A stretch of 51,590 nucleotides of DNA, taken from the IMG/VR virus record IMGVR_UViG_3300044822_000051, positions 1-51,590 of that record. The stretch is one strand, 5' to 3'. Within the stretch, counting starts at the first letter, position 1. Each line of letters starts with the position of its first letter. Of the stretch, positions 4,277-32,587 are shown in pieces. Below the pieces are notes generated by a model. That model made no database searches. It was not told where the DNA came from and saw only the letters and a list, made by a program, of their open reading frames with translations. Both the position numbers and the translations under genes were made by a program. Source of the DNA: a virus.

Positions 4277-4306
4277 ACCTTACGCCAGACTGACGCCCCC
4301 GTCAAC
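4277..4306 (-). promoter_or_regulatory. Operator 1 (4289-4306) between the divergent early operons
   Basis: ACTGACGCCCCCGTCAAC holds the TGAC-N6-GTCA core shared by eleven sites. On the minus strand TTGACG (4305-4300), a 17-bp spacer and TAAGGT (4282-4277) make a promoter facing the replication operon, so the operator covers its -35 box. A weaker plus-strand candidate has TTGACG at 4263-4268. A repressor bound here could gate both early operons. Confidence 0.6.
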
Positions 4307-4320
4307 TGTGGAGATGGGAC

Positions 4321-4542
4321 ATGAAAGTCCAGCGCTACGTCGTGTTGCACGAGCCTCGCCAAAATTGGGCATGGGTAGTCACTGATCACGGCGGCCCGTC
4401 AGTTGCCAGATGTAAAACAGAGAAAGAAGCCGAACGCGTAGCCGACGCTCTCAATCTGGCACGTCGCGTAGCCGCTTTCAAAGCGCCGGGCGTTCATTGG
4501 TTCGAGAGCCTTCAGGATGATGCGAGAGAGCTACTTAAATAA
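4321..4542 (+). CDS. Small hypothetical protein, first gene of the helicase operon
   Basis: 73 residues, MKVQRYVVLHEPRQNWAWVV at the start, mixed alpha/beta with an amphipathic KTEKEAERVADALNLARRV helix. GGAGATGGGAC before the ATG gives a Shine-Dalgarno. Its TAA overlaps the ATG of the helicase (TAATG). I do not recognise a family. Its position as leader gene just downstream of operator 1 suggests early expression. Confidence 0.7.
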   Translation: MKVQRYVVLHEPRQNWAWVVTDHGGPSVARCKTEKEAERVADALNLARRVAAFKAPGVHWFESLQDDARELLK

Positions 4543-6248
4543 TGCCACTCTACGATTTCCAAGAGCAAGTCAAGAACGAGACCTACGCGCGTTGGCAGGA
4601 GCCGGACGTGTTTAACGTCATTGCCTCCATGGCCACGGGCGGCGGGAAAACGGTCACGTTTTGTCAAATCGTCCAAGATTTCAATGCCCCCGCGTGTATC
4701 ATCGCCCACCGTCAGGAGCTAGTCTCTCAGGCGTCCCTAGCACTCAACCGGGCAGGCATACAACATGACATCATTGCGCAGTCGGCTACTCGACAGGCTA
4801 TTATTCGCGTTCATTACGATACTGATGGCGATAGTCATTTTCGTCGCGGCGCTCCAATACGTGTTGCAGGCGTGGATACCCTGCTTAACCACGATCTTAC
4901 AGACCGATGGCTGTCGCAGGTTGGCCTTGTCGTGCCTGATGAAGGGCACCATGTGCAGCGCGAGAATAAGTGGGGAAAAACCATCGGGATGCTCCCGAAT
5001 GCCCGAGGATTTTTTCCTACCGCTCACCCCCTACGTGCTGACGGCCGTGGCCTGGGTCGCAACAGCGATGGGTTGGGGGACGCTATTGTTGTGGGGCCGC
5101 ATGCTCGCCTACTCATCAACCGAGGTTTTCTTACTGACTATCGCCTGTTCTGCCCATCTAGTGACATTGATTTTCATAACCTTGATGTCGGTCCAAGCGG
5201 TGAGTACAGCGCACCGAAGCTGCAAGCCGTTACCCACGCGTCCAACACCATTGTGGGGGACGTTGTTAAATCATACCTCAAGCTTGCCCCCGGTAAGTTA
5301 GGTGTCACGTTCGCGGTTGATGTCAAAGGCAAAAACGGCGCACAAGCCATCGCAGCGGCGTACAACGCGGCGGGCGTGCCCGCGCAGGTCATTACGGCAA
5401 ATACGCCCATCGCTGTTAGGGCCGACTACATGCGCCAATTTCGGGCCCGTCTTTTGCTTCAGCTCGTATCCGTGGATTGCTTGGGTGAGGGTGTTGACGT
5501 GCCTGCAATTGAGGTTGTCAGCATGGTCCGCAAAACCGCCAGTTTCCAACTGTACGCACAGCAATTTGGCCGCGCGCTGCGCGTTATGGTCGGCGACGAA
5601 CACCAAAGGAACTGGGGTAGTTACACAGATGAACAACGACTTATTGTCATTGCTAATTCAGCTAAGCCGAAAGCGATAATTATTGACCATGTTGGAAACT
5701 ACGCGTTTCATGGACTTCCTGACGTTCCTCGCACTTACAGCTTGGATCGCGCTGAGTGTCGCGCGCGCCCGAAGGCCGGCCCGGAATCCCTTAAGGCGTG
5801 TCCTCAATGCACACAGGCGTTCGAGAGATTTTTGTCCACATGTCCCTATTGCGGTTTCGCGCCCGAGCCCCGTGGCCGAGGCACGCCCGAGCAAGTTGAA
5901 GGCGATATCATCGAATTATCTCCTGAGGTGCTGGCTAGTCTGCGTGGTGAAATTGCGCTTTTGGATGGCTCGGCGCCTGATTACGGTCGCGATGTGGTTG
6001 GAAACTCTGTCCGCAAAAATCATCACAACAAACAGTCGGCGCAATTGACTCTTCGGGGCGTGATGGCCATATGGGCGGGCTGGCGTTTCAAGCTTGGTGA
6101 GAATATGAAGGACGCCAACCGCCGATTTTGGTATACCTACGGCATGGACGTTCTAACTGCGCAAACGTTAGGTGTTAAAGATGCCGCCGAGCTGCAGGCC
6201 CGAATACAGACCGAGTTACAACAGAATTACGTAGAGGTGAGAACATGA
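4542..6248 (+). CDS. SF2 DEAD/DEAH-type helicase with C-terminal zinc ribbon
   Basis: 568 residues. Motif I ATGGGKT (31-37), motif II DEGH (133-136), GEGVDVP (315-321) and QQFGRALR (340-347) define an SF2 helicase of the phage replication or recombination type. A four-cysteine ribbon (C420, C423, C434, C437) follows. Motif III reads TAHP (160-163) where TATP is usual, so one conserved threonine is histidine. It probably unwinds or remodels DNA during replication or recombination, using ATP. The gene overlaps its neighbours on both sides (TAATG and ATGA). Confidence 0.93.
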   Translation: MPLYDFQEQVKNETYARWQEPDVFNVIASMATGGGKTVTFCQIVQDFNAPACIIAHRQELVSQASLALNRAGIQHDIIAQSATRQAIIRVHYDTDGDSHFRRGAPIRVAGVDTLLNHDLTDRWLSQVGLVVPDEGHHVQRENKWGKTIGMLPNARGFFPTAHPLRADGRGLGRNSDGLGDAIVVGPHARLLINRGFLTDYRLFCPSSDIDFHNLDVGPSGEYSAPKLQAVTHASNTIVGDVVKSYLKLAPGKLGVTFAVDVKGKNGAQAIAAAYNAAGVPAQVITANTPIAVRADYMRQFRARLLLQLVSVDCLGEGVDVPAIEVVSMVRKTASFQLYAQQFGRALRVMVGDEHQRNWGSYTDEQRLIVIANSAKPKAIIIDHVGNYAFHGLPDVPRTYSLDRAECRARPKAGPESLKACPQCTQAFERFLSTCPYCGFAPEPRGRGTPEQVEGDIIELSPEVLASLRGEIALLDGSAPDYGRDVVGNSVRKNHHNKQSAQLTLRGVMAIWAGWRFKLGENMKDANRRFWYTYGMDVLTAQTLGVKDAAELQARIQTELQQNYVEVRT

Positions 6249-6343
6249 GCAGTCAAGTCAGGTGCAACGGGTGCGGGAAACTATCGCCCATCGTGGCGCC
6301 CTGTTGCCCGCACTGCGCGGTAGCACGTAAGGGCGGCCTATGA
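6245..6343 (+). CDS. 32-residue zinc-ribbon mini-protein
   Basis: Reads MSSQVRCNGCGKLSP at the start and ends with PCCPHCAVARKGGL. Two metal-binding knuckles, C-x2-C and C-x2-C, are the minimum for one zinc ion. Its ATG overlaps the helicase stop and its TGA overlaps the next ATG, so it fits the operon exactly. The role is unknown; the helicase next door also ends in a zinc ribbon, and a shared partner is possible. Confidence 0.75.
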   Translation: MSSQVRCNGCGKLSPIVAPCCPHCAVARKGGL

Positions 6344-6831
6344 CTCTCATAGAGTGGGCTGAGAAATGGCGCATCCCTGATGCCGCCATTGCCGAGCTGT
6401 GCCGTTCTACGCTCCATGAGGGGCCGCGCGAGCCTGGTGACAAAGAGGGTGTTGTACAGTCTGATATTCGTTTGAAGGCTGGGCGCACGTCTCTGCTACC
6501 GTGGGGACAGCACACGTACTTGTATCGGAATAACCGGGGGGCCGGCAAACTCACAAACGGCTCATACGTGCGTTGGGGCTTGGCGAATGATTCGGAACGG
6601 CTTGGCGCATCGGTTAAATCAGCCGATTTGATCGGATGGGAGCAGGTGCGCATTACGCAAGAGCACGTGGGCTCAGTCATTGCCCGGTTTCTCTCCATCG
6701 AAGTCAAACGGCGCAATTGGAAGTTTGCGGCATCTTTGGAGGAGTGTGCACAAGTGCATTGGGCGTCTGTTGTGAACGCCCAGGGCGGCCGGGCCGTTAT
6801 TACCAACACTGACGGGAGTGTGTCAACATGA
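6340..6831 (+). CDS. VRR-NUC domain nuclease
   Basis: 163 residues with the pattern of phage VRR-NUC proteins: VQSDIRLKAG, LYRNNRGAGK, VRWGLANDSE, SADLIGWEQV, then FLSIEVKRRNW and WASVVNAQGGRAVI. The DLIG aspartate and the E-x-K of IEVK are the predicted metal-binding residues of this PD-(D/E)XK-like fold. Such enzymes act on branched DNA or as structure-specific endonucleases. It sits in the helicase-primase operon with ATGA overlaps at both ends. The family call is from memory of the motif order and is fairly firm; the substrate is inference. Confidence 0.85.
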   Translation: MTLIEWAEKWRIPDAAIAELCRSTLHEGPREPGDKEGVVQSDIRLKAGRTSLLPWGQHTYLYRNNRGAGKLTNGSYVRWGLANDSERLGASVKSADLIGWEQVRITQEHVGSVIARFLSIEVKRRNWKFAASLEECAQVHWASVVNAQGGRAVITNTDGSVST

Positions 6832-7145
6832 GTTTTAAGTGGATAATACTAAACACCATTTTAATAGCAGGTTTGGTGTGCGGCTTGGATTACGCCGCAT
6901 GGGAATTGGGTAAAACCGTTTCCAAACCAAATCATTCGGCCGTGCTCGCAAGCGATGCTAGCGGGCAATGCGAAAAACCTGACGGTCGCGGTGAATACAA
7001 CGTAAAGGCTAACTCAGGCTGCGACGCCAAGTTATCGGAGGTGGAGGGGTTTCTCATGAAAAACGGCACCGTGTGCGTCGTTCCAAGTACCCAAAAAGCC
7101 GGCGACTACGGGAATTGGCACTGTTACATCAAGGCGGCGTTGTGA
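6828..7145 (+). CDS. Small protein with one N-terminal membrane segment
   Basis: 105 residues. Residues about 4-25 (WIILNTILIAGLVCGLDYAA) form a membrane helix or uncleaved signal anchor, followed by a polar domain with four cysteines (C48, C65 and two near the C-terminus) that could form disulphides outside the cytoplasm. ATGA overlap with the VRR-NUC gene. No family recognised. A membrane protein inside an early DNA-metabolism operon is unusual; it could concern exclusion or replication at the membrane, but nothing proves either. Confidence 0.7.
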   Translation: MSFKWIILNTILIAGLVCGLDYAAWELGKTVSKPNHSAVLASDASGQCEKPDGRGEYNVKANSGCDAKLSEVEGFLMKNGTVCVVPSTQKAGDYGNWHCYIKAAL

Positions 7146-7360
7146 GCGATTTTCACATTGAGGTTATATGCCACGTCGATCCACCAAAGGATAAACCTTG
7201 GATGCGGCCAAAGCCGGAAACCGTGTGGGTTGGTATCGTGCCTTGGATACCGCGCATGGGTGATACCGTGGCGTGGAATGACTGCGGCTATGACAGAGCT
7301 GTTAAATACGTCTGCTACGATTTAGACAACCGAAAGGTAACCGTGGAGTTAGAGCCATGA
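7142..7360 (+). CDS. Small hypothetical protein, GTG start
   Basis: About 72 residues from GTG at 7142 (GTGA overlap with the preceding stop), reading VSDFHIEVICHVDPPKDKPW. An upstream ATG at 7073 is possible but would overlap the previous gene by 73 bases. Beta-rich with WVGIVPWIPRMGDTVAW, resembling short SH3-like or beta-barrel proteins common in phage early operons. No function can be assigned. Its stop overlaps the next ATG. Confidence 0.65.
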   Translation: MSDFHIEVICHVDPPKDKPWMRPKPETVWVGIVPWIPRMGDTVAWNDCGYDRAVKYVCYDLDNRKVTVELEP

Positions 7361-7620
7361 AAATCCTGAAGCAAGGCGAGCCGGCCAAGCTGTACGGCTG
7401 CTGCACTAGGTGCAGGACTGTGGTGGAGACTGATGCGAGGGAGGCAACCAAGGACGGTCCGAGTCAATACATGGTGAAGTGCCCAACATGCGGCACGTAT
7501 TTCCCCGTGTGGGGGCAGGCGGTGCACGTTGATGGTGTTAGGTATCCCCCCGCAAAGCCTGAACCGACGACCACGCGCCTCTGCGGCGCTGGCTTGACAC
7601 TCCCGTCAGTTAAGTCTTAG
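7357..7620 (+). CDS. Zinc-ribbon protein
   Basis: 87 residues. GCCTRC near residue 14-19 and CPTCG at about 41-45 give a C-x2-C...C-x2-C zinc ribbon (KILKQGEPAKLYGCCTRCRT at the start). The gene begins with an ATGA overlap and is the last of the overlapped run. Its 3' end contains the promoter and operator for the TetR-like gene, so its last 9 codons double as regulatory DNA. Function unknown; probably a DNA- or protein-binding accessory factor. Confidence 0.72.
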   Translation: MKILKQGEPAKLYGCCTRCRTVVETDAREATKDGPSQYMVKCPTCGTYFPVWGQAVHVDGVRYPPAKPEPTTTRLCGAGLTLPSVKS

Positions 7621-7622
7621 AG
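7593..7622 (+). promoter_or_regulatory. Operator 2 (7593-7610) within the promoter of the TetR-like gene
   Basis: TTGACA (7594-7599), a 17-bp spacer and TTAGAG (7617-7622) form a promoter for the regulator. CTTGACACTCCCGTCAGT keeps the TGAC-N6-GTCA core, and its left arm is the -35 box itself. The site is the natural place for autorepression. Confidence 0.6.
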
Positions 7623-7647
7623 TGCAGACTCAGCCGAAGATTTTACT

Positions 7648-7938
7648 ATGTTAAAACAAGACATTCTTGCCGCCGCTACCCGTCTCGCCCAGGTGAAGGG
7701 CTATCGTCGCGTGACTCGCGAAGAGGTGGCCGAGTCGGCTGGGTGCGTAGAGTCCACGGTGAGCTACCATTTCGGCGACATGGATGCTTTTCGCACGGCG
7801 GTTGTTGAGTACGCCGTCGCGAACGAAGTACTAGACGTGCTCGCCGATGCACTCGCATCAAGGCATCCGGCGGCTATCGCGGCCCCTGAGCCGCTGCGGC
7901 GCAAGGCCGTCCGATACCTCGCCGACTCCCTGCGCTAA
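7648..7938 (+). CDS. Mini TetR-family transcriptional regulator (DNA-binding domain only)
   Basis: 96 residues. Residues 1-50 read as a TetR N-domain: ILAAATRLAQVKGYRRVTRE, then VAESAGCVESTVSYHFGDMD, the helix-turn-helix with the typical S-x-YHF recognition end. Usual TetR proteins have about 190-220 residues with a ligand-binding C-domain; here only one or two helices follow (AVVEYAVANEVLDVLADAL). Such short TetR-like proteins occur in other phages. A dimer would bind a palindrome, and eleven copies of one palindrome occur in this genome, including one in its own promoter. It is proposed as repressor of that regulon. Ligand control seems unlikely for lack of a pocket. Confidence 0.85.
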   Translation: MLKQDILAAATRLAQVKGYRRVTREEVAESAGCVESTVSYHFGDMDAFRTAVVEYAVANEVLDVLADALASRHPAAIAAPEPLRRKAVRYLADSLR

Positions 7939-7956
7939 CTCGGCGTCCCGCACGCC

Positions 7957-10452
7957 ATGCAAGACACACGCTTACTGCGTGAGCTTTCGCACCTTCGCGC
8001 TTTCGTAGTCTGGCGGTTTATTGTCAAGCCAGATAAGCCGAAACCCGACAAGGTTCCGATAGATCCACGCAGCGGCTACCCCATCGACTGGATGGAGTCT
8101 GCCACATGGATGTTGCCATTTGAGGCGCTGGCTGCAGCCGATGCGCTGGGCCCGCAGTTCGGGGTGGGACTCGTGGCCGCGCCGGGCTCAGGCCTGTTCT
8201 TCGTGGATCTGGACAGCGCCCGGGATCCCAACGGCGGCTGGTATCCCCACGTGCGGGCGTTCGAAGGTCTGTTTCGCGGCGGGTATACCGAAACCTCGGT
8301 GTCACTGACTGGGCGGCACATCGTGGTCCGGGTGCAAACAGCGCTCCTGCCGGCACATGGCACCCGCAATTCCGATTTCCGCATGGAGGCTTATTCGCAG
8401 GCCCGGTTTCTGGCTTTAACGGGCATAGATGCTGCAGGCTCCCTCGAGCACGATTTTACCGCGGTAGCTCAGCGGTTCCTGACCCAGTATTTCGCGCCGG
8501 CTCAGAATCGTCTGACGGATTGGCAGGACGGCCCTGTAGACGAATGGGACGGCCCCGACGACGACCAAGAGCTGATACGCCGCGCTTGTCGATCCCACGG
8601 GGCTCGAGGCGCTTACGGCCGTTCTGCACTGTTTGTGGACCTGTGGAACGCGACCCCCGAGATTCTAGAGCGCCAGTTTCCGCCCCAGTCCGCCGGTAAA
8701 GCCTACGACGCATCAGCGGCCGACATGGCGCTCCTGAACCATCTGGCTTTCTGGACAGGCAACGACTGCCCGCGCATGGAGAGGCTCCTGAAAGCTTCAG
8801 GTCTCGCGCGGCCGAAGCATGACCGGCCGGACTACATGCGTCGCTCGATCCTGGCCGCTTGCGCCTCACAGACCGAGTGGTATAGTGGCGGCGACCGGCA
8901 TGCGGCGCCCGCCTCCGATCTTGCCGAGACGGACCGTGACGGCCCAGGGTGTGAGCCCCTACCGCATGCGCCTTATTCGGTGCCTGACCCGCCCCAGGCG
9001 TCTCCGCCGTCAACGTCAGTTATGGTGAGTGCGGGGCCACCTACCGCCCCCGAACATAAGGCGCCGGCTCTTGCGTCAATCGGAGGCGGTAGGACGGCGC
9101 CACTGCCCGCGCTTGGTCCGCTCCCGGCGGTTGGAACGTTTCTCAACATCGTCATGGCGCTCCAACATTTTGAAGGCTGTTGCTACGTGGCCGATATCAA
9201 CCGCATTCAATTACCGGACGGCACCACGCAGGGTAAGGACCAATTTGACAACCTGCGCGGCAATTGGATGTGGCCAATGGAGCCGGATGGATCTAATCCC
9301 ACCAACAGCGCGTGGGAGTGTTTCTTGAAGAACCAAATCCACGAGTTCCATAAGGCTGCGGCTCAATACTTCAACCCACGCGAGGCGACTGGCGCAACAC
9401 GCGTCCGTGATGGACGCACCGAGGTTAATTGTTATGCCCCACTTGATATACGCCGAATTCAAGGGGACCCAGCCCCCTTCGTGCGACACATTCAGCGTTT
9501 GCTTCCCCGAGACTGGGAACTCATGCTTTACACACTCGCCGCTAGGGTCCAGTTCCGAGGCATCAAGTTCATGTGGTCACCCTTCCTGCAAGGAACAAAG
9601 GGAAACGGCAAAACGCTACTTGCAAAGATACTCGAATACTCTATTGGCCAGCGTTATACGCACTGGCCCAAACCGGAACAACTGGACGAGAAATTCAACC
9701 TTGTCCTTACGGATAAAATTATAATTATTGTTGATGAGCTGCCACGCAATGGACTGGAGATAGAGCCCACGCTCAACACACTGGTAACTGCGACACGGTT
9801 GGAAATTCGCCCGATGTACGGCGAAAAGATCATGCGGGACGTATGTTTCAACCCGTTCTTTATTTCCAACTACCGCGGTAGCCTGCAGTGCGATCCCGAC
9901 CAACGCCGCTACGCGCCGTTTTTCTGCGCCCAGCAACACAAGGCGGATCTGGCTCGCGACGGACTCACGAACGACTACTTTCAACAACTACGGCATTGGC
10001 TGGAGAATGAGGATGGATATGCCATCAGCGCTTGGTATCTTAGCACCGTCGATATTCCCAGGGCTCATCATCCTGACGTATCTATACGTGCACCGGAAAC
10101 TACTTCTACGACCGCGGCCTATCGTGCTAGCTACTCGCCAGCCGAGCAAGAGGTTTTGGAGGCAATTGAGGCGGGGCGCGTTGGCTTCCGCAACGGCTGG
10201 ATATCTTCTCATGCGCTTGATGTTGAATTCAGTCGCGCGGGCCGTGCGAAACAGCTGCCGTTGAACGTGCGCCGGGGTATCGTGGAGGGGTTGGGCTACG
10301 TACCCCATCCATCCCTAGCGGACGGGCTGCTGCATACGGTCCTACCGGACGGTACGCGGCCACGGCTGTACATTCGCGAAGAACACGCCTGGAATGTCAA
10401 TTACCTAACACCGGACCAAGTTAAGGCCGGCTACTTGGAGGCGCAGAAATGA
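7957..10452 (+). CDS. D5-like primase-helicase (prim-pol-like N-domain plus SF3-type ATPase)
   Basis: 831 residues. The N-terminal 200 residues resemble bifunctional primase-polymerase domains: VPIDPRSG, LFFVDLDSARD with D84-x-D86 as likely metal ligands, and SLTGRHIVV. A flexible Pro-rich linker lies around 300-380. The C-terminal helicase has Walker A GTKGNGKT (546-553), Walker B IIIIVDELP (D593-E594) and FFISN as sensor. It should prime and unwind DNA at the fork. It begins 18 bases after the TetR-like gene; the ribosome-binding site is weak, so the start is likely but not certain. Confidence 0.92.
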   Translation: MQDTRLLRELSHLRAFVVWRFIVKPDKPKPDKVPIDPRSGYPIDWMESATWMLPFEALAAADALGPQFGVGLVAAPGSGLFFVDLDSARDPNGGWYPHVRAFEGLFRGGYTETSVSLTGRHIVVRVQTALLPAHGTRNSDFRMEAYSQARFLALTGIDAAGSLEHDFTAVAQRFLTQYFAPAQNRLTDWQDGPVDEWDGPDDDQELIRRACRSHGARGAYGRSALFVDLWNATPEILERQFPPQSAGKAYDASAADMALLNHLAFWTGNDCPRMERLLKASGLARPKHDRPDYMRRSILAACASQTEWYSGGDRHAAPASDLAETDRDGPGCEPLPHAPYSVPDPPQASPPSTSVMVSAGPPTAPEHKAPALASIGGGRTAPLPALGPLPAVGTFLNIVMALQHFEGCCYVADINRIQLPDGTTQGKDQFDNLRGNWMWPMEPDGSNPTNSAWECFLKNQIHEFHKAAAQYFNPREATGATRVRDGRTEVNCYAPLDIRRIQGDPAPFVRHIQRLLPRDWELMLYTLAARVQFRGIKFMWSPFLQGTKGNGKTLLAKILEYSIGQRYTHWPKPEQLDEKFNLVLTDKIIIIVDELPRNGLEIEPTLNTLVTATRLEIRPMYGEKIMRDVCFNPFFISNYRGSLQCDPDQRRYAPFFCAQQHKADLARDGLTNDYFQQLRHWLENEDGYAISAWYLSTVDIPRAHHPDVSIRAPETTSTTAAYRASYSPAEQEVLEAIEAGRVGFRNGWISSHALDVEFSRAGRAKQLPLNVRRGIVEGLGYVPHPSLADGLLHTVLPDGTRPRLYIREEHAWNVNYLTPDQVKAGYLEAQK

Positions 10453-10720: not shown

Positions 10721-10805
10721 TGGTGGACTAGCCTGGATTCGAACCAGGGAACCCGAAGGACCAGATTTACAGTCTGGCGGCTTTATCCATCTCACCAACT
10801 AGCCC
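10721..10805 (-). tRNA. tRNA-Tyr (anticodon GTA)
   Basis: 85 bases including an encoded CCA. Acceptor GGGCTAG/CTAGTCC (one G-T), anticodon stem CCAGA/TCTGG around loop CTGTAAA, long variable arm as in bacterial tRNA-Tyr, and T-arm CCTGG/CCAGG with TTCGAAT. All arms fold well. Likely functional and cotranscribed with the tRNA-Asn eight bases upstream. Confidence 0.93.
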
Positions 10806-10813
10806 AAACTGAC

Positions 10814-10886
10814 TGGGGGCGGCTGGGCTCGAACCAGCGACAAGCGGCGTAACAGGCCGCTGCTCTACCAACTGAGCTACATCCCA
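10814..10886 (-). tRNA. tRNA-Asn-like (anticodon GTT), imperfect acceptor stem
   Basis: 73 bases. D-arm GCTC/GAGC, anticodon stem GCGGC/GCCGC around CTGTTAC and T-arm GCTGG/CCAGC are intact. The acceptor pairs TGGGATG with CGCCCCC, leaving T-C at position 1-72 and an A-C mismatch, plus one G-T. No CCA is encoded. It may be a decaying gene or a tRNA needing unusual processing. Confidence 0.75.
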
Positions 10887-10902
10887 AAAACCTTAAATTG
10901 AG

Positions 10903-11418: not shown

Positions 11419-11724
11419 TCAACGCAGGTTGATCACAACGCCTGACACGGTGCCATAGCCGTGCGAATTGGCGCGGATTACGGTGCCATCCATCTGGCGG
11501 AAAACCAACCCATTGCTCGGACGCAGCGTGCACGCTTCAATCTGGCGCATGCGGCGCGCACGCTCTTGGGCGCCATTGGGTGTATACGCCTTGCGCGGCA
11601 TCATCCATCGTGGGATTTGTGCCTCACTGCCTCCTCCCGTTAGCACGCGGAATGACGAGCCAAATGATGCCAGTATCGCAGCCAGCGTAGCCCACTGCGA
11701 CCTGTGTACGTTCCCGAATTTCAT
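11419..11724 (-). CDS. Hypothetical protein under operator 3
   Basis: 101 residues, starting MKFGNVHRSQWATLAAILAS. Residues about 10-30 are mildly hydrophobic (QWATLAAILASFGSSFRVLTGG). The C-terminal half contains NGLVFRQMDGTVIRANSHGYG. GGAG is six bases before the ATG, and the promoter with operator 3 lies 28 bases upstream. Not recognised. Confidence 0.65.
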   Translation of the reverse strand: MKFGNVHRSQWATLAAILASFGSSFRVLTGGGSEAQIPRWMMPRKAYTPNGAQERARRMRQIEACTLRPSNGLVFRQMDGTVIRANSHGYGTVSGVVINLR

Positions 11725-11751: not shown

Positions 11752-11780
11752 ACTATACTGACGATTACGTCAGTGCACAA
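11752..11780 (-). promoter_or_regulatory. Promoter with operator 3 (11757-11774)
   Basis: Minus strand: TTGTGC (-35), 17-bp spacer and TATAGT (-10). The spacer is the palindrome ACTGACGTAATCGTCAGT. It directs transcription of 11419-11724 and downstream genes. Confidence 0.7.
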
Positions 11781-12819: not shown

Positions 12820-12837
12820 ACTGACGCGTTCGTCAGT
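12820..12837. promoter_or_regulatory. Operator 4
   Basis: ACTGACGCGTTCGTCAGT, a full palindromic site. The flanking hexamers are poor promoters on both strands (plus: TGAAAA, 17 bp, TATGGC), so it may act on the nearby minus-strand promoter or in looping with other sites. Confidence 0.6.
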
Positions 12838-13733: not shown

Positions 13734-13762
13734 ACTATACTGACGCTCACGTCAGCAGTCAA
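13734..13762 (-). promoter_or_regulatory. Promoter with operator 5 (13739-13756)
   Basis: Minus strand TTGACT, 17 bp, TATAGT, a near-consensus promoter whose spacer is the palindrome with core TGAC-N6-GTCA. The palindrome arm is CGTCAGC at one end. Confidence 0.75.
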
Positions 13763-14180: not shown

Positions 14181-14209
14181 AGACTACCTTGCAAGAGCCA
14201 CGACGTCAA
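14181..14209 (-). promoter_or_regulatory. Leftward promoter candidate without operator
   Basis: Minus strand TTGACG, 17 bp, TAGTCT, about 29 bases before the ATG at 14152. Unlike its neighbours it has no palindrome. Confidence 0.45.
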
Positions 14210-14241
14210 ATTCCTACTTTTCTCCCCCATAGTAATCATTA

Positions 14242-14270
14242 TTGATACTATACTTAATTCTGTTTATTAC
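14242..14270 (+). promoter_or_regulatory. Rightward promoter candidate for the late operon
   Basis: TTGATA (14242-14247), 17-bp spacer, TATTAC (14265-14270) in the AT-rich 263-base gap between divergent gene blocks. It faces the terminase genes. No palindromic operator is present. Confidence 0.55.
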
Positions 14271-14442
14271 CCGCGTTAAAAGGTAGGAAAACCGATATCG
14301 CAAGCTCTAGATGCAGCTTGCAAGGTGCAAGGCGCTGGTTACGGCATCGGTGGGCCACCCGTGGAATTCATAACCATGTGGTTATACATAAGCATTTGAG
14401 GCCCTTGCGCTCTAAGTGGTTGTTTGTAATAGTGTGGGCACT

Positions 14443-15369
14443 ATGGAAATTGCGACAGTTCCCGCGGGATCAGCCGTTGCGGCGCCCGCCGACGCCCTCG
14501 AGCCGACCCGCGCCGAAAAAACCGTGGAGTTTGCTCGCGCCAAGTGCAACGCTGCAGAACAGGCGTTTGCAGAGCACTGGGCATCATGCGGCAACAAGGC
14601 CAAGGCGTACAGGTTGGCGATGGGCTACGGCCAGAAGCCTAACGATGAAGTACGTGGGCGCAAGCCGCCGTTCCGCATGTATGCTTCAGCCATTGAGTAC
14701 AGCTTTCGGCCGCACGTCATGGCCTACTTCAACGCGCTGAAATCCCTGGCTGCAGAACGTGCACTGATAGACGTGCAACGCATCCTGCAACACGACGCAG
14801 CAATTGTGACCGCGTGGGAGCAAGGCGCCGCGAATGACCTAACCAGTTATGTTTGGATGAATTGCCGCCGTTGCTGGGGCATAGATGGCGAATACCAGTG
14901 GATTGATGAGAAGGAGTTCGCTGATGCGGGCGCGGCGTGGTTCGCCCAGGTAGCAACGACGTCGGCCGACAATCCCACTCCAGCTCAGCCTACAGATAAA
15001 GGCGGCTACGGGTTTCATGACTGGAATGAGCCCAATCCTGATTGTCGGGCGTGTAAGGGACTGGGTGATCAGCGCAGCATCGTGGCAGATACCACGAAGT
15101 TGGAAGGTGCCGCCGCCGTGCTCTATCGCGGGATAAAGCAAACGGCGAACGGCATTGAAGTGCTAACTCACGACGTAGACAAGGCCAAAGAGCGGCTGCT
15201 CAAGGCTTCGCGCGTTTACGGCGACTCGGCAACCGATGTAGCTCGAGGGGCTGCTGCAGGGGCTGCTGCGGGGGCTGCGGCAGCTCAGGCAGCAAGCCGT
15301 ACAGCTGTCGTCGCCGAGACCATGACGGACGAACAGGCAGCACGGGCGTATTTGGAGCTGGCGGGTTAA
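14443..15369 (+). CDS. Terminase small subunit
   Basis: 308 residues from ATG at 14443 (MEIATVPAGSAV). The text CRRCWGIDGEYQW, then NPDCRACKGLGDQRSIVADT and AVLYRGIKQTANGIEVLTHD is typical of phage small terminases of this length, with an N-terminal DNA-binding helical domain and a C-x2-C / C-x2-C zinc site in the middle. An Ala-rich stretch (about 270-290) precedes the end. It recognises phage DNA and recruits the large subunit. The ribosome site is weak and a GTG at 14416 is possible. A minus-strand accessory cassette separates it from terL. Confidence 0.85.
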   Translation: MEIATVPAGSAVAAPADALEPTRAEKTVEFARAKCNAAEQAFAEHWASCGNKAKAYRLAMGYGQKPNDEVRGRKPPFRMYASAIEYSFRPHVMAYFNALKSLAAERALIDVQRILQHDAAIVTAWEQGAANDLTSYVWMNCRRCWGIDGEYQWIDEKEFADAGAAWFAQVATTSADNPTPAQPTDKGGYGFHDWNEPNPDCRACKGLGDQRSIVADTTKLEGAAAVLYRGIKQTANGIEVLTHDVDKAKERLLKASRVYGDSATDVARGAAAGAAAGAAAAQAASRTAVVAETMTDEQAARAYLELAG

Positions 15370-16405: not shown

Positions 16406-16434
16406 AGTATACTGACGGCGCCGTCAGTTTGCAA
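16406..16434 (-). promoter_or_regulatory. Promoter with operator 6 (16411-16428)
   Basis: Minus strand TTGCAA, 17 bp, TATACT. The palindrome ACTGACGGCGCCGTCAGT fills the spacer. The -35 box starts immediately after the TAG of the gene at 16435-16719. Drives the 15.2-16.2 kb cassette. Confidence 0.78.
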
Positions 16435-16771: not shown

Positions 16772-16800
16772 CTCATACTGACGGCGCCGTCAGTTTGCAA
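16772..16800 (-). promoter_or_regulatory. Promoter with operator 7 (16777-16794)
   Basis: Minus strand TTGCAA, 17 bp, TATGAG, with the same perfect palindrome as operators 6, 8 and 11. The flanks match operator 8 beyond the promoter (GCTTTATTTGC), pointing to duplication of the whole promoter module. Confidence 0.75.
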
Positions 16801-20913: not shown

Positions 20914-20942
20914 TTGCAGACTGACGGCCCAGTCAGTATACT
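20914..20942 (+). promoter_or_regulatory. Promoter with operator 9 (20920-20937)
   Basis: Plus strand TTGCAG, 17 bp, TATACT with ACTGACGGCCCAGTCAGT in the spacer. The only promoter of this type facing the same way as the late genes. It drives 20972-21833. Confidence 0.75.
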
Positions 20943-20971: not shown

Positions 20972-21103
20972 ATGCACTGCTGCGGCTGTAAAGTCAGTTG
21001 GTTTTATAACTTTTGTTGCCGCTGGTGCGGGGCTGACTATTCGAAGGTCATAGATCTATTTACTGAGGAGAACACGAAACATGAAACGAGAGATGTTGGA
21101 TAA
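20972..21103 (+). CDS. 43-residue zinc-ribbon protein
   Basis: MHCCGCKVSWFYNFCCRWCG at the start: two knuckles, C-x2-C and C-x2-C, nine bases of linker apart, enough for one zinc. About 30 bases after the -10 box of operator 9. Its 3' end overlaps the next gene by 23 bases. No strong ribosome site is visible. Confidence 0.6.
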   Translation: MHCCGCKVSWFYNFCCRWCGADYSKVIDLFTEENTKHETRDVG

Positions 21104-21870: not shown

Positions 21871-23499
21871 ATGCGTATCCTAGCCAAACTCCGTCGATTA
21901 TTTGCCCGCATTCGGGCCGCATTTCACGAGCCCCCTGCGCCGGCTGTAGCACCGCCCCCTCCCGAGCCGCCACGCATTCCGTGGGACTATCTAATATCCC
22001 GTCTTAAGCAGCCTGAGGAACCCCCGAGGCGTGAGCTGCAGCTCCCGCAACTATTGCCCGGCGTACGCCCCGCCAAGCTTCCTAGCGCCAGTGAGGTGGT
22101 GCTCGCCCTGGATTCAGCGGGCAACCAAGAGCCGATGGCCACGGACGCTATGCCCGCCTCGTGGGGCTATACGGGCAATGGCACCCTTGGCCCAGGGCTC
22201 GCGTTTCTCGGGTTCCCGTACCTCGCCGAGCTGACCCAAATCAGCGAGTACCGCATACCGGCGGAGACACTGTCTACGGAGATGACTCGCACTTGGGTCA
22301 AGCTGAAGAACAAGGGCAAGAAGAAGTTAGACGACAAGATAGCGGAAATCACGCAAGCCTTCGAAGATTTCAAGTTGCGTGACGTGTTCCGCGAAGCCGC
22401 ACTCAAGACTGAAGAGTTTGGCCGTGCGCATGTGGCCATCAACATCAAAGGCCAAGATAGCGATATAACGCGCCAATTGCCGCTGACCAAGATCCAGAAA
22501 GGTACGCTGTTAGGTTTCAAATGCATTGAGCCTTATTGGCTCACGCCCTACTCGTGGAATTCCACGCGCCCGCGCGATGCGGATTTCTACAAACCTCAGT
22601 CATGGTTCGAAATGGGCAAGAAAACCCATGCGAGCCGCTACCTGACGTTTATCTTTCGCGAAGTGCCGGATCTGTTGAAACCAGCGTATGACTTCGCAGG
22701 TATCAGCATTACTCAGCTTATGATGCCTTACGTACAACGTTGGTTGCGTACGGCAAAGAACGTCAATGATCTAATCAACATTTTTTCAATTGTTACGTTG
22801 GCCACCGATTTGCAGACTATGCTGCAAGCGCCAGATGACTCCCCCGAGAGTCTAATGGGCCGGTTAAGAGCGTTTACAGCAGCCCGCGACAATCGCGGTG
22901 CCATGGTCATCAACAAGGACACGGAAGAACTGTCCGTTAATGACGTATCGCTCGGCTCGCTGGACAAGCTGCAAGCTCAGTCTCAGGAGCATATGGCCAC
23001 GCCGGCCCGTATGCCGCTGATCAAGTTTTTCGGCATCACGCCCACGGGGCTCAATGCGACTAGCGAAGGTGAGTTTCAGAGCTGGTACGACTACGTTAAG
23101 TCGCTGCAGGTGTTGGGATACGGGCCGCACCTTGAACGTGCGCTAGAGCTGGTCCAAATGCATCTCTATGGCGAAGTTGACCCGGATATCACCTATGAAT
23201 TCCTATCACTGTACGAGCCCACGCCTAAGGAAGAGGGTGAAATGCGCAAGGCGGACGCTGAACGGGATAGCGTGTATTTGGATAAAAGCGTCGTATCGCC
23301 TGATGAGGTTAGAGAGAAATTGCGCATAGATCCAAAGAGCGGCTATGGCGATTTGGAGGGCGACGCGCCACCTCCACCGGAGCAGGCGGAATTTGAGCTG
23401 GGCGAGAAAGGCGCTGAATCGGCGCATGGTCGCAGTGAAGAGTCAGCCGAGAACGCCCATGAGCGGCAATTGGAAATACAGACGACGGAGGGTGAGTGA
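21871..23499 (+). CDS. Portal protein (DUF1073-like)
   Basis: 542 residues. The body fits the DUF1073 portal group: AELTQISEYRIPAETLSTEM, then LRDVFREAALKTEEFGRAHV, DNRGAMVINKDTEELSVNDV, ARMPLIKFFGITPTGLNATS and EGEFQSWYDYVKSLQ. The N-terminal 80 residues are Pro-rich and the C-terminal 60 acidic, as usual. Forms the dodecameric ring at the head vertex through which DNA enters. Its stop overlaps the next ATG (TGATG). Confidence 0.9.
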   Translation: MRILAKLRRLFARIRAAFHEPPAPAVAPPPPEPPRIPWDYLISRLKQPEEPPRRELQLPQLLPGVRPAKLPSASEVVLALDSAGNQEPMATDAMPASWGYTGNGTLGPGLAFLGFPYLAELTQISEYRIPAETLSTEMTRTWVKLKNKGKKKLDDKIAEITQAFEDFKLRDVFREAALKTEEFGRAHVAINIKGQDSDITRQLPLTKIQKGTLLGFKCIEPYWLTPYSWNSTRPRDADFYKPQSWFEMGKKTHASRYLTFIFREVPDLLKPAYDFAGISITQLMMPYVQRWLRTAKNVNDLINIFSIVTLATDLQTMLQAPDDSPESLMGRLRAFTAARDNRGAMVINKDTEELSVNDVSLGSLDKLQAQSQEHMATPARMPLIKFFGITPTGLNATSEGEFQSWYDYVKSLQVLGYGPHLERALELVQMHLYGEVDPDITYEFLSLYEPTPKEEGEMRKADAERDSVYLDKSVVSPDEVREKLRIDPKSGYGDLEGDAPPPPEQAEFELGEKGAESAHGRSEESAENAHERQLEIQTTEGE

Positions 23500-24257
23500 T
23501 GCCGCTCAGTTCAGGTAAATCTAAAGGCGCGTTCAAACACAACATCGAAGTCGAGGTTGCTGCAGGTAAGCCGCAAAAGCAAGCCGTGGCGATAGCCTAC
23601 AGCAAGCGCGGCGAGGATGAGTTTGAAGTTGAGACGGAAGACTGCGAAATTGAGATGGATGCGCTATTCGAGCCTACGCCATCGGAAGAAATAGCGCACG
23701 ATTCGTTGCCTCAGCTCGTATTTGACCGTTCGTTGCGTCACAAGGACGTTGACGGGCGATTACACGTACGGGACTGCAACATCTCAAAAGCCAACATTTG
23801 CCCCTACCTGGGCCATGAAATACCGGACCACGAACGGCTGGGCCTTGAGCCGGATCGGGTGTATTACCTGTATCGCGACGCCGCGGCTCTGTGTGCGGCA
23901 GCTCCCACGGCTGAGCGCGTGCCGCTCATGATGCGCCACGTCTCCAGTACGGCGCTGAGCCCGCAGAAGGAAACAATCATCGGGTGCGTCTCCAACGTAC
24001 GCTGGCGTCCGCCCTACCTCGTGGCGGATCTGACCGTATGGGACGCTGTTGGAATTGAGGCTATTGAGTCAGAGCGGCAGCAGGAGCTATCGCCCGGTTA
24101 CCGGTATATGCCCGTCATGGAGTCAGGCGTACTGGAAGGCGAACGGTTTGATGGGCGCATGTCTGCACCCATCATTTTTAACCACGTGGCAATTGTTGAC
24201 ACCGGGCGCACAGGGCCAGACGTTGTGGTGAATGATTCAGTTCCCGCAAGCGTGTAA
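23499..24257 (+). CDS. DUF2213 prohead protease-like protein
   Basis: 252 residues from ATG 23499. Residues 1-40 (PLSSGKSKGAFKHNIEVEVA then GKPQKQAVAIAYSKRG) are a short module often found in front of or beside phage head genes. From about 75: LVFDRSLRHKDVDGRLHVRD, ISKANICPYLGHEIPDHERL, ELSPGYRYMP and IIFNHVAIVDTGRTGPDV, the DUF2213 signature including the NHVA histidine segment. Probably processes head proteins. Family members are usually longer with a scaffold region; here the gene stops at 24257 before an insertion, and 25401-26204 may be the missing part. Confidence 0.85.
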   Translation: MPLSSGKSKGAFKHNIEVEVAAGKPQKQAVAIAYSKRGEDEFEVETEDCEIEMDALFEPTPSEEIAHDSLPQLVFDRSLRHKDVDGRLHVRDCNISKANICPYLGHEIPDHERLGLEPDRVYYLYRDAAALCAAAPTAERVPLMMRHVSSTALSPQKETIIGCVSNVRWRPPYLVADLTVWDAVGIEAIESERQQELSPGYRYMPVMESGVLEGERFDGRMSAPIIFNHVAIVDTGRTGPDVVVNDSVPASV

Positions 24258-24294: not shown

Positions 24295-24540
24295 CCCTTG
24301 ACTTCTGCGAGGGAGAAGTCCGCTTGGTTCGTCCTGCATCGGTTGCGTGAGGCGTGCGGCGATGAATTGCCGAAGCTGTCCGGCATCGTCGAGATTGACG
24401 AGACCTACATCGGCGGCAAAGAGGGGAACAAACGCGAGCGCAAGAAGCTCAAGGCTGGACGCTCTATTCTCGAGGCGGCCTGCCGTCGCGTATCGACGGA
24501 AAGAAGATCACCGGTTGTTACCCATTTCGCGCTAACCTAA
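24295..24540 (+). pseudogene. Remnant of an IS1595 (ISXO2-like) transposase
   Basis: The frame gives EKSAWFVLHRLREACGDELP, then GIVEIDETYIGGKEGN and KKLKAGR, the helix-turn-helix end and first catalytic D region of ISXO2-type DDE transposases. It has no proper start (a stop lies just upstream in frame), and after about 24460 the homology breaks off, so both ends of an enzyme of about 300 residues are missing. No terminal inverted repeats found. It lies exactly between the DUF2213 protease and the minus-strand cassette, marking a past insertion. Confidence 0.82.
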
Positions 24541-25096
24541 CTAAGTAGTCTGCAAACGACGTGGGTGTAATGTGAGTCTCTTTGTCATTGAGTCTCGGTA
24601 AAAGCCGGTTGCCCGTATGCACGCCGCCGCCGATTTGATGCGAGCCGCGCGGACGATCCTCGTTAAACGGCAGGGGCGTGGCGTCCCCCACGTATAGCAG
24701 CCATGTGCGTTTGGCGGCTTTATGCCCGTAGGCGCTTTGCCAAACTTCCGCAACCCACTCTTTCTCGTTTACGCGGCTCCAGCCGGTGCCTACGGGCTTT
24801 TGCAACCCGAACGCGCCCCAAGCTATTGAGAACGCAGGGTGCTCAAGAACGCCGCCGTAGAGGCGCACAGCGCCAAGCGCCGCTTTGAAACACCCGCCGT
24901 CGTCGCCGACTTTCGCGCCCCATCGGCGTTCGTTCATGCGGGCCATGCCACACCAACGTCCGCAAGGGGGGTGTGCCACCACGCGGTTTGGCCCCGCGTA
25001 GTTACGTGCGTCGCGTTTCTCATCCCAACAATCGACGCCGGCCATTTTCGGGTACGGCCCGTTAGGATCAATGTAGAGAGCAGATATATTAATCAT
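24518..25096 (-). CDS. DNA methylase-like protein with PPC motif
   Basis: 192 residues. VVAHPPCGRW (about 38-47) and GGVLEHPAFSIAW (about 80-92) recall motif IV (PC) and the following ENV-like motif of cytosine-C5 methylases; later GTGWSRVNEKEWVAEVWQSA, GHKAAKRTWLLYVG. A phage family of this shape is often labelled methyltransferase, but a SAM-binding FxGxG motif is not seen, so activity is uncertain. ATG at 25096 has no good ribosome site. It is the distal gene of the cassette under operator 10. Its start may be coupled to the upstream gene, 32 bases away. Confidence 0.65.
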   Translation of the reverse strand: MINISALYIDPNGPYPKMAGVDCWDEKRDARNYAGPNRVVAHPPCGRWCGMARMNERRWGAKVGDDGGCFKAALGAVRLYGGVLEHPAFSIAWGAFGLQKPVGTGWSRVNEKEWVAEVWQSAYGHKAAKRTWLLYVGDATPLPFNEDRPRGSHQIGGGVHTGNRLLPRLNDKETHITPTSFADYLVRLARNG

Positions 25097-25128
25097 TGGA
25101 TGTCAAGCGGATAAGCATGGTTAGTTGG

Positions 25129-25311
25129 TCAGGTGAATTCGGGTTCGAAACCGTGTTGGCGGGCGCGGAACAATTCGTCTTGATCATTGTCAGACATGCC
25201 TTGCCACGCCCAATAGACGTTGTGCATCCAATCTCCGCGACGATTTTCCTTAGCGCCGAGTTCGTTGCACTGCTGCATGACGCGGCTATCGGTCTGTTCT
25301 GATGTCGTCAT
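25129..25311 (-). CDS. 60-residue hypothetical protein under operator 10
   Basis: MTTSEQTDSRVMQQCNELGA at the start, GGGAG seven bases before the ATG, charged and helical (AWQGMSDNDQDELFRARQHG). First gene after the promoter at 25346-25374. No family recognised. Confidence 0.65.
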   Translation of the reverse strand: MTTSEQTDSRVMQQCNELGAKENRRGDWMHNVYWAWQGMSDNDQDELFRARQHGFEPEFT

Positions 25312-25345: not shown

Positions 25346-25374
25346 ACTTTACTGACCCTTTCGTCAGCTTGCAA
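25346..25374 (-). promoter_or_regulatory. Promoter with operator 10 (25351-25368)
   Basis: Minus strand TTGCAA, 17 bp, TAAAGT. The site ACTGACCCTTTCGTCAGC keeps the TGAC-N6-GTCA core with a changed centre. Just to its right lies the plus-strand TTTGACATAAT motif, so the region is divergent. Confidence 0.7.
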
Positions 25375-25381
25375 GGCCCGA

Positions 25382-25411
25382 TTTGACATAATGCAGCCAC
25401 GTGGAAATACT
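25382..25411 (+). promoter_or_regulatory. TTTGACATAAT motif before the scaffold-like gene
   Basis: Same 11-base element as before portal. Here TTGACA (25383-25388), 17 bp and AATACT (25406-25411) can also be read as an ordinary promoter, in which case translation would begin at the GTG of 25452. Confidence 0.45.
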
Positions 25412-26204
25412 CCGAATTACATATGTCCTATCTCATCAGGAATTACACCCCGTGAAGCTAGCCGCTGTTATCGACGTGATTGCGCCGTTTTTGGCGACGG
25501 ACAAGAAACCGGCTGATGTACAAAAGGCCATCTTGGCGGCAGACAAAAAGGCGAAGGATGCAGCGGGTTCGGGCCTGGGCTCACGTGAGCTCGAGGAGAG
25601 TGACCGGCCCGGCGCGAAGGATGCCGCCATGGACGCGCGTGAAGCAGCGTGTGATGAGCGCGAAGAGACCATGGACGCGGCTGAGGAAAAGGCTGACGCG
25701 GGCAAGGAAGACAAGGAAGCCAAGGACCGCAAAGCGGCCCGCGACAAGCGCGCCAAAGACCGCGCTGACCGGAAAATGGGCCGTGATAAGGCCGCAAGGG
25801 ACCGCAATGACGATCCCGAACACACAAATGATGAGAATTTTATGGAAGGAGCCAACCCGTCCACGCCCGGCGGTAGCCGCGCAGGTGGCAAGACTGCGAT
25901 TGACTCGGGCGAGGCTGACCGGCGCATTGCGGCGGCGATTGCCGCGCGTGACGCGCTCCATGCGGCTCGCACCGATGTGCAGTCGATTCTCGGCGTGACT
26001 GCATTCGACAGCGCGGGCGCGACGTACGCCGCTGCGCTGAAGCACCTTGGCGTAGCGACGGACGGCATTCCCGAGAGTGCCTACGGCGCCATGCTCGCGC
26101 TGGCGCGCAAGAGCGCGGCCCAGGCGCAGCCTACCGGCGCATCGGATGCCGCCACCGTGGCGACCATGTCCACCCTTATTCCCGGCTACGGCCGACTGCG
26201 TTAA
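25401..26204 (+). CDS. Scaffold-like protein, possible split-off C-terminus of the DUF2213 protease
   Basis: 267 residues from GTG 25401; an internal GTG at 25452 has AGGA at good spacing and gives VKLAAVIDVIAPFLATDKKP, text like the start of the C-terminal part in longer DUF2213 proteins. The centre is highly charged (EEKADAGKEDKEAKDRKAAR), as in scaffolds. The C-terminus (TAFDSAGATYAAALKHLGVA) resembles the end of those fused proteases. Likely guides capsid assembly. Separated from the protease by 1.1 kb of insertion. The split is an inference. Confidence 0.7.
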   Translation: MEILRITYVLSHQELHPVKLAAVIDVIAPFLATDKKPADVQKAILAADKKAKDAAGSGLGSRELEESDRPGAKDAAMDAREAACDEREETMDAAEEKADAGKEDKEAKDRKAARDKRAKDRADRKMGRDKAARDRNDDPEHTNDENFMEGANPSTPGGSRAGGKTAIDSGEADRRIAAAIAARDALHAARTDVQSILGVTAFDSAGATYAAALKHLGVATDGIPESAYGAMLALARKSAAQAQPTGASDAATVATMSTLIPGYGRLR

Positions 26205-28435: not shown

Positions 28436-28436
28436 C

Positions 28437-29000: not shown

Positions 29001-29010
29001 GGTAAAAGTT

Positions 29011-29466: not shown

Positions 29467-29471
29467 GGCCC

Positions 29472-30852: not shown

Positions 30853-31385
30853 GCTACTCTGTCAGTATCACACTTCAGAATGTGTATGAAGTGGTGCAAC
30901 CGCTGGTCATGGCGGTGACCGGGCTCGGGCAGAGTTTGGTGATACAGGACGCGCCGAATCGCAGCGCTATGCCGCCGGCATCGCCCGGATTCGTGGTCAT
31001 GCAGCTCACGCGGCAAAAACGCCTGCGCACGAATGTGGACACGACTCCGCCGGGTGCGAATCCTACCACTCAGTCGATTGAACAAGGGACGGAGCTTACG
31101 CTGCAGTTGGATTGTTATGGCGCCAGCTCAGGCGACTGGGCACAGATGTTGTCCGCGATCCTACGTGACGAACAGGGCTGCAATGCGCTAGAGCCCACGT
31201 GTGACCCACTTTATTGCGACGACCCCATGTGGGCGCCATTGGATGATTCAGAGCTGCAGTACGAGCAACATTGGATGCTATTTGCGAAACTGCAGTACAA
31301 TCCGATAACCACGGTGGGCCAGCAGTACGCCGACATCGTGGATTTTACACCGGTCAGCGTCAATCAGAAATTTCCTCCGGGTTGA
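30849..31385 (+). CDS. Tail terminator-like protein (LIC_12616 type)
   Basis: 178 residues. MSYSVSITLQNVYEVVQPLV then SPGFVVMQLTRQKRLRTNVD and SIEQGTELTLQLDCYG, DWAQMLSAILRDEQGCNALE match the phage neck/tail terminator group known as LIC_12616. It caps the tail tube and joins it to the neck. The 3' end overlaps a convergent minus-strand gene by 26 bases. Confidence 0.78.
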   Translation: MSYSVSITLQNVYEVVQPLVMAVTGLGQSLVIQDAPNRSAMPPASPGFVVMQLTRQKRLRTNVDTTPPGANPTTQSIEQGTELTLQLDCYGASSGDWAQMLSAILRDEQGCNALEPTCDPLYCDDPMWAPLDDSELQYEQHWMLFAKLQYNPITTVGQQYADIVDFTPVSVNQKFPPG

Positions 31386-31638
31386 CCGGTGGGACGCCCG
31401 CGCACGATTTGAACTCGGGCGGCTTGTCGCACAGTTTCTTAAACTCCTTCCGATGTTGTTCTACAGTCTGCCATTCGCGCCAAATCACGTGAATGACTTG
31501 GCGTTCATCGTCACAGCATTCGGTGAGCTGTGCCGCGAGTGACCAAACCATGTCCATAAGCGCGGCCTTGCTCAATTTCCCCAGTTCCCCGGTATGTTTG
31601 TAAGGGACCAAGGCGGGCGGAATATTTTTAAGATGCAT
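31360..31638 (-). CDS. Hypothetical accessory protein
   Basis: 92 residues, MHLKNIPPALVPYKHTGELG at the start, helical core DMVWSLAAQLTECCDDERQV. TTCCTGTT before the start gives AGGAAC on the minus strand as ribosome site. Last gene of the minus-strand cassette at 31.4-32.5 kb. Not recognised. Confidence 0.62.
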   Translation of the reverse strand: MHLKNIPPALVPYKHTGELGKLSKAALMDMVWSLAAQLTECCDDERQVIHVIWREWQTVEQHRKEFKKLCDKPPEFKSCAGVPPVNPEEISD

Positions 31639-31686
31639 GTTTAGTTCCTGTTAGTTGAGCTGCTAGATCGATTTGCTGGCAGTTGG

Positions 31687-32145
31687 TCAGCGAACGGTCC
31701 CGCCTTGGTTGTACAATCGCACGAATGCCAGCGCAAGGGTGCGCCTGTATTCGGTCCGCGCCGATGCGCTAACGCGGTCGTACTCGGCCCATGCGGCGGC
31801 GCGAACGCGGTCAAACTCGGCCTGTGCGGCGGCGCAAACGCGGTCGTACTCAGCCAGCGCCGGTGCGCGAACGCGGTTGTACTCAGCCAGCGCCGATGCG
31901 TAAACGCGGTCGTACTCGGCCCATGCGGCGGCGCAAACGCGGTCGTACTCAGCCAGCGCCGGTGCGCAAACGCGGTCGTACTCAGCCCGCGCGGTTAGGG
32001 GGAGAAGCTCACCGACCCAACTCCGACGGAACTTATCGACTACCTTTAGGGCGACTTCCTCGGTGACTTCCACAGAGTCGCCAAACAGCGCGCGTTGGCC
32101 TTCGCATGCGCCGGCATCAATTAATTGTTGCAGTGTTAGTTTCAC
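31687..32145 (-). CDS. Protein with eight 11-residue repeats
   Basis: 152 residues. The N-terminal 45 (LQQLIDAGACEGQRALFGDS and EVALKVVDKFRRSW) form a head seen in other phage repeat proteins. Residues 54-141 are eight copies of an 11-mer of type AEYDRVCAPAL (DNA period 33 bp, 31723-31986). Eleven-residue periodicity favours an extended helical, right-handed coiled coil. AGGAGC lies before the ATG. Number of repeats can change by slippage. Function unknown; I know similar repeats from phage genomes without assigned role. Confidence 0.75.
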   Translation of the reverse strand: MKLTLQQLIDAGACEGQRALFGDSVEVTEEVALKVVDKFRRSWVGELLPLTARAEYDRVCAPALAEYDRVCAAAWAEYDRVYASALAEYNRVRAPALAEYDRVCAAAQAEFDRVRAAAWAEYDRVSASARTEYRRTLALAFVRLYNQGGTVR

Positions 32146-32196
32146 GTTTCTAGCTCCTGTTTGGTTGTAAGGCGTCGCTGGTGCCTGTCGGCATCG

Positions 32197-32224
32197 GGTT
32201 GCGCCCGTGTGGACAGGCGCAACC
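32197..32224. other. GC-rich hairpin between cassette genes
   Basis: GGTTGCGCC (32197-32205) pairs with GGCGCAACC (32216-32224), 10-base loop. A competing pairing GCCTGTC/GACAGGC overlaps it. No T-run follows on either strand. It may attenuate transcription from operator 11. Confidence 0.55.
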
Positions 32225-32267
32225 GCGTTGACTACAGTTCCAAGTTATGTTTGTCCGATGCTCAAGG

Positions 32268-32531
32268 TTAGGTCAGATCGTATCCGGTGATAGTCCACTC
32301 AAGGTCGCTCAAGTCCTCAACCCCCTCCAGATCGGCGGCCGACTGGTAGTAGTACGCGGTCAACACAGCATCGCCGTTATCCGAAATTGACGCTGAGTAT
32401 TCCACGCTATCGTCACCATCAGTCTGCAGGCGACCCGTGGGCGCGCAGTTGACGCTATCCAGCATGTTTACCAGCTCGGCGCCAATCGCCTGAATTGCCT
32501 GCTCGCGAGTCATTATGCCTTTGGTGCTCAT
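32268..32531 (-). CDS. Hypothetical protein under operator 11
   Basis: 87 residues, MSTKGIMTREQAIQAIGAEL at the start, very acidic in the second half (DNGDAVLTAYYYQSAADLEG), ending WTITGYDLT. GGAG precedes the ATG by about 11 bases. Acidic small proteins under accessory control could be DNA mimics (anti-defence), but that is speculation. Confidence 0.65.
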   Translation of the reverse strand: MSTKGIMTREQAIQAIGAELVNMLDSVNCAPTGRLQTDGDDSVEYSASISDNGDAVLTAYYYQSAADLEGVEDLSDLEWTITGYDLT

Positions 32532-32558
32532 TGTCGTGTCTCTCCAGTTGGTGAGCCC

Positions 32559-32587
32559 AGTATACTGACGGCGCCGTCAGTTTGCAA
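32559..32587 (-). promoter_or_regulatory. Promoter with operator 11 (32564-32581)
   Basis: Minus strand TTGCAA, 17 bp, TATACT, perfect palindrome in the spacer. Twenty bases to the right, the plus strand has TTTAACATAAT ahead of the first secreted-protein gene. Confidence 0.78.

Follow-up and report, generated by a model that had tools for sequence, protein, structure and literature searches.

A mini TetR-like protein and a palindrome scattered over a myophage genome: a probable genome-wide repressor regulon

The DNA analysed here ("the window", 51,590 nucleotides, positions 1 to 51,590 of IMG/VR virus record IMGVR_UViG_3300044822_000051) comes from a myophage whose relatives in the phage collection are all distant, and its proteins match PHROG families for tail sheath, portal, major head protein, DNA polymerase, primase, exonuclease and ssDNA-annealing protein. 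The early region consists of two divergent operons: a minus-strand recombination operon (860-4236; ssDNA-binding/annealing protein, exonuclease and a third gene of unassigned type; phrog_7011, phrog_69) and a plus-strand operon (4321-10452 by the gene calls; phrog_16, phrog_1829) that runs from a helicase gene through the gene for a 96-residue TetR-like protein (7648-7938, plus strand), here called mini-TetR, to primase. Minus-strand cassettes, whose genes have almost no recognisable relatives, are embedded in the plus-strand late genes. Neither an integrase nor a partition protein turned up in the scan of the window proteins, which covered all but some small ORFs.

The first-pass annotation had listed eleven copies of TGAC-N6-GTCA, and all eleven are present; dinucleotide shuffles of the window contain a mean of 0.59 and a maximum of 3 such sites (100 shuffles). 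Most take the form of the 18-bp palindrome ACTGACG-N4-CGTCAGT. When up to 3 mismatches to this 18-mer are allowed just 3 extra sites appear, and 2.2 are expected over the whole search, so the set of eleven looks complete. The centers of 10 of the 11 sites lie between called genes (10.6% of the sequence is intergenic), and the eleventh site (TGAC at 7595) reaches into the 3' end of the ORF that precedes tetR. The small ORF directly upstream of tetR (7357-7620) has a weak match (E 0.003) to the translational-regulator family phrog_6417.

How do these sites lie relative to promoters? It had been claimed that at eight sites the palindrome occupies a 17-bp promoter spacer, and we find an identical geometry in all eight: the -35 hexamer, mostly TTGCAA, lies exactly 8 bp before TGAC and the TATACT-like -10 hexamer exactly 15 bp after it, so that the operator fills the 17-bp spacer of a sigma70-like promoter. 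These sites have their TGAC at 11759, 13741, 16413, 16779, 17189, 25353 and 32566 (promoters on the minus strand) and at 20922 (plus strand). The minus-strand promoters are as follows: TTGTGC-N17-TATAGT at 11752-11780 (operator 11757-11774; cassette gene 11419-11724), TTGACT-N17-TATAGT at 13734-13762 (operator 13739-13756), TTGCAA-N17-TATACT at 16406-16434 (operator 16411-16428), TTGCAA-N17-TATGAG at 16772-16800 (operator 16777-16794; cassette gene 16435-16719), TTGCAA-N17-TATATT at 17182-17210 (operator 17187-17204; cassette gene 16959-17174), TTGCAA-N17-TAAAGT at 25346-25374 (operator 25351-25368; cassette 24518-25311) and TTGCAA-N17-TATACT at 32559-32587 (operator 32564-32581; cassette 31360-32531). 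The plus-strand promoter, TTGCAG-N17-TATACT at 20914-20942 (operator 20920-20937), faces the gene at 21081-21833. A threshold of 4/6 matches in both hexamers in this register is passed by 6 of the 11 sites and by 0.19% of random positions. Comparison of the gene calls with the site map also bears out the earlier statement that every minus-strand cassette inside the late region has a site upstream. A possible promoter at 14242-14270, upstream of the terminase genes, has no operator.

In a second register the palindrome supplies the -35 box with its own outer TTGAC; this register is found at the window sites with TGAC at 4291 and 7595 and in relatives (27 of 66 sites in the Klebsiella/Pectobacterium group are at one offset in this register). 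The operator at 4289-4306 lies between the divergent early operons, where the palindrome forms the -35 box of the recombination-operon promoter (TTGACG-N17-TAAGGT, 4277-4305, minus strand) and would overlap the -10 box of a possible promoter of the helicase-tetR-primase operon (TTGACG-N17-CAGACT, 4263-4291, plus strand). The operator at 7593-7610, a probable autoregulatory site that has the same position in relatives, overlaps the -35 box TTGACA (7594-7599) of the mini-TetR gene, as had been noted; no other TetR_N protein was found. The remaining operator (12820-12837, TGAC at 12822) has no convincing promoter in either direction, which counts against the proposed regulon.

The mini-TetR protein matches PF00440 (TetR_N; E 3.5e-10, 40 bits against a cutoff of 24) and, from residue 3 to 93 and thus over essentially its whole length, phrog_8723 (E 1.5e-27). 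Its AF2 model (mean pLDDT 94.6) is all-helical, with the helix-turn-helix (HTH) at residues 24-31 and 35-42. TetR proteins in the PDB align by sequence mostly within model positions 3-66, the HTH half; no solved TetR matches the C-terminal half, and the PDB holds no good full-length structural match (best E 9e-3). The usual C-terminal ligand-binding and dimerisation domain of about 120-150 residues is absent, as the protein ends at residue 96. The BFVD database of viral predicted proteins, on the other hand, gives a match of nearly the same length (A0A516L4K0, 97 aa, TM 0.91). Because PDB TetRs match the HTH half alone and viral proteins of the same length match the whole, the short form is a property of the phage family, and it is common to most phage relatives. 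These are usually encoded close to primase; their phages infect Klebsiella, Pectobacterium, Edwardsiella, Vibrio and other hosts, and Escherichia phage ZCEC13 has the gene too. L028 (21424-21924), L020 (38065-38565) and L042 (869-1369) encode double-HTH variants, with a second, degenerate TetR-like domain in front of the mini-TetR.

Do the protein and the palindrome occur together elsewhere? As a single query the window protein matched nothing in viral contigs, and relatives there were collected with an alignment of four closer relatives (12 divergent ones were too variable). The palindrome is enriched in JD001, PEAT2, KsaM-C1, MSW-3, CP-T1 and environmental phages, whose proteins have 30-50% identity; found and expected counts are, for example, 14 and 1.1 in KsaM-C1, 14 and 1.4 in JD001, 17 and 1.3 in PEAT2, 12 and 1.0 in MSW-3 and 9 and 0.8 in CP-T1. 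JD001 and PEAT2 (Jedunavirus) had been chosen as tetR-free controls; both carry tetR (it is annotated in JD001), and they were therefore counted as positives. The PEAT2 (L031) gene is an unannotated one at 14201-14476. HMSP1, a phage without mini-TetR that served as the negative control, has 1 site, the background level. A second IMG/VR phage (G001) has 7 sites and shares the exact 18-mer with the window. Environmental records picked by protein alone contain 9, 44, 12, 14, 6 and 19 palindromes, and three picked in the same way that have other recognition helices contain 1 each. An operator lies 25-70 bp upstream of tetR at more than 20 loci, including that of G001 (some of the loci are one phage counted twice), and the divergent early region carries a site in the window, KsaM-C1, MSW-3, CP-T1, JD001, L043 and L045. 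In five genomes 41 of 60 sites are centered between genes, and about 11% is intergenic.

The association was also approached from the DNA. When IMG/VR was scanned for operator-promoters in the -35 register, at least 120 stretches were found; those with a single match may include chance matches. Among the matches listed, 26 of the 49 records tested encode mini-TetR, as against roughly 0.2% of phage records, and among the 18 with at least three strict palindromes the number is 16 (one of the 16, G030, has a weak protein match with an operator directly upstream). The two exceptions are contig fragments that lack the tetR region: G052 covers structural genes, and G058 stops on the helicase side, short of the place where tetR would be expected. 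The refuting condition named in the first-pass annotation, the same palindrome without the TetR-like gene, was thus looked for both from the protein and from the DNA, and no complete genome of that kind was seen among the matches listed.

Across relatives there is a trend for the presence of the site to follow the type of recognition helix. The palindrome is not in clear excess in phages whose recognition helix has PPA, PQA, PSL, TAL or NSS, whereas it is in most of those with G or S at the corresponding position; CKB-S1, L195 and L196 are exceptions. The mini-TetR carriers AeroV_348, PD0307, Vibrio 367.14 and CKB-S1 have no excess of this palindrome, and their helices differ; phiPLPE, with a divergent mini-TetR, has 1 site. 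When phages with other recognition helices were searched de novo for palindromes, candidates came only from PY6 and Scuro. In PY6 (L024) GTAGCGC-N4-GCGCTAC, which has the length and spacing of the operator and another sequence, occurs five times, none of them upstream of its tetR, and in Scuro TGACA-N4-TGTCA occurs five times, once 49 bp upstream of its tetR. GACG-N4-CGTC is in excess in Vibrio 367.14 and SppYZU01, and coding bias is a possible source of this.

The sites, their promoter registers, their co-occurrence with the protein and the conserved placement upstream of tetR are direct observations, but what would the protein do there? Since protein and palindrome recur together in many distant viruses, they very probably constitute one genome-wide off-switch, although shared descent could account for part of the co-occurrence. 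The -35 and spacer positions, the two registers and the placement on the protein's own promoter suggest that it represses host sigma70 promoters sterically, and we consider it likely that mini-TetR binds the 18-bp palindrome and blocks these promoters, its own included, so that the early operons and the cassettes are shut. We infer binding, dimerisation, repression and timing as follows: At DNA entry the promoters would be free, and the early operons and accessory cassettes would be transcribed immediately. Repressor would build up from the early operon until its dimers, bound to ACTGACG-N4-CGTCAGT, block the host-sigma70 promoters that contain the palindrome and shut them and its own gene. 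The late plus-strand genes, which have no operator, would then be transcribed without collision with transcripts from the embedded antisense cassettes. Mini-TetR is probably an early-to-late switch, and the positions of the operators, on the early operons and on minus-strand cassettes amid late genes, suggest that early shut-off also prevents antisense collision. The first-pass annotation had proposed a TetR-controlled regulon of scattered accessory genes; the co-occurrence supports the regulon, and its scope was drawn too narrowly, as it also takes in the core recombination operon and probably the helicase-primase operon. Simple promoter blocking does not account for L045 (G003), which has 44 TGAC-N6-GTCA sites in 54 kb, 25 of the 39 sampled lying within called genes.

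The same protein and sites might instead form an immunity system of lysogeny or pseudolysogeny, comparable to lambda CI or P1 C1, in which all early promoters are silenced and the phage is dormant, with no role in lytic timing. According to its record CP-T1 came from an "induced lysogen", and that phage was reported to be temperate with no known lysogeny genes found (PMC3391216); sites on both divergent early operons and on tetR, and a stoperator-like density of sites in G003, would suit such a system as well. We nevertheless think it unlikely, as neither an integrase nor a partition gene is present among the window proteins scanned, a strict search of about 85,000 prokaryote genomes for the spacer-register operator-promoter found 4 matches (about the chance level), a single, partial match to mini-TetR exists among 72,556 plasmids, and 138, a close relative, is described as lytic (PMC3391216). 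It is quite improbable that another protein, of the host or the phage, binds the palindrome and the TetR gene is merely one of its targets: use of the site by a host factor is conceivable, and binding by mini-TetR is our own deduction, but the site tracks mini-TetR, and broadly its recognition helix, through numerous phage groups whose hosts differ, and a search by the site DNA alone retrieves mini-TetR.

The registers bear on two further possibilities. That the palindrome is no more than the back-to-back -35 boxes (TTGAC...GTCAA) of divergent promoters is scarcely credible; its outer TTGAC does act as a -35 box in relatives, but eight window sites have a separate TTGCAA-like -35 box with the palindrome wholly in the spacer, and most of these eight face a single cassette. 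Nor is mini-TetR at all likely to be an activator of these promoters. Certain regulators do activate from within a promoter spacer, but MerR-type promoters have spacers of 19-20 bp and the spacers here have the optimal 17 bp; moreover, there are two different registers and one site lies over the protein's own -35 box. Repression by mini-TetR is the reading we retain below.

Genome-wide phage repressor regulons are already known. The C1 repressor of phage P1, a temperate plasmid prophage, has operators scattered over the genome; as proposed here for mini-TetR, it is one phage repressor with many promoter operators, its own promoter included, and unlike mini-TetR it is a larger, unrelated protein with asymmetric operators. 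Lambda Cro is a small early repressor that shuts early promoters in lytic growth, but it has a different fold and few operators rather than a genome-wide set. Other members of the TetR family (PF00440) share with mini-TetR an N-terminal HTH, an operator in the -35/-10 region and probable autoregulation, but are usually about 200 residues long and have the ligand-binding/dimerisation domain. In cluster A mycobacteriophages many genome-wide stoperators serve one repressor, as the sites would here, and G003 with its many intragenic sites looks similar; that immunity repressor (PMC9283540, PMC6550527) acts as a monomer, recognises an asymmetric site and maintains lysogeny, whereas the window has a palindrome, a TetR-like protein and no lysogeny genes among the proteins scanned. 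The tetR-like genes of phiPLPE, CP-T1 and 138, which belong to the same gene family as the window's, were annotated by Comeau et al. (2012; PMC3391216) and guessed to encode an osmotic-stress regulator; the words operator, promoter and palindrome are absent from that paper. We found no description of operators or a regulon for these proteins in the open-access literature, where transcription control of this myophage group also appears undescribed, and the proposed mini-TetR/palindrome regulon thus appears to be new.

The protein-operator pair comes with a predicted expression map for a widespread myophage group that includes Klebsiella phages of therapy interest, and it bears on how CP-T1 could behave as temperate without known lysogeny genes. 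More tentatively, and with doubt outweighing confidence, this TetR HTH protein of about 96 residues might be the master repressor of a network common to dwarf myophages that look virulent; it would time early shut-off and, in members with as many as 44 sites, many inside genes, act as a genome-wide roadblock, possibly letting phages with no known lysogeny genes lie dormant, as has been reported of CP-T1.

The operator-promoter label probably marks the function-unassigned accessory cassettes as early host-takeover genes. One minus-strand cassette with its operator-promoter is inserted between the halves of a head maturation protease of family phrog_2229, whose positions 6-186 and 199-423 are encoded by separate ORFs (23499-24257 and 25401-26204). 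Another contains an ORF (31687-32145) with about 7 copies of a 33-bp tandem repeat (31758-31992), and tRNA-Tyr and tRNA-Asn genes lie side by side on the minus strand at 10721-10887.
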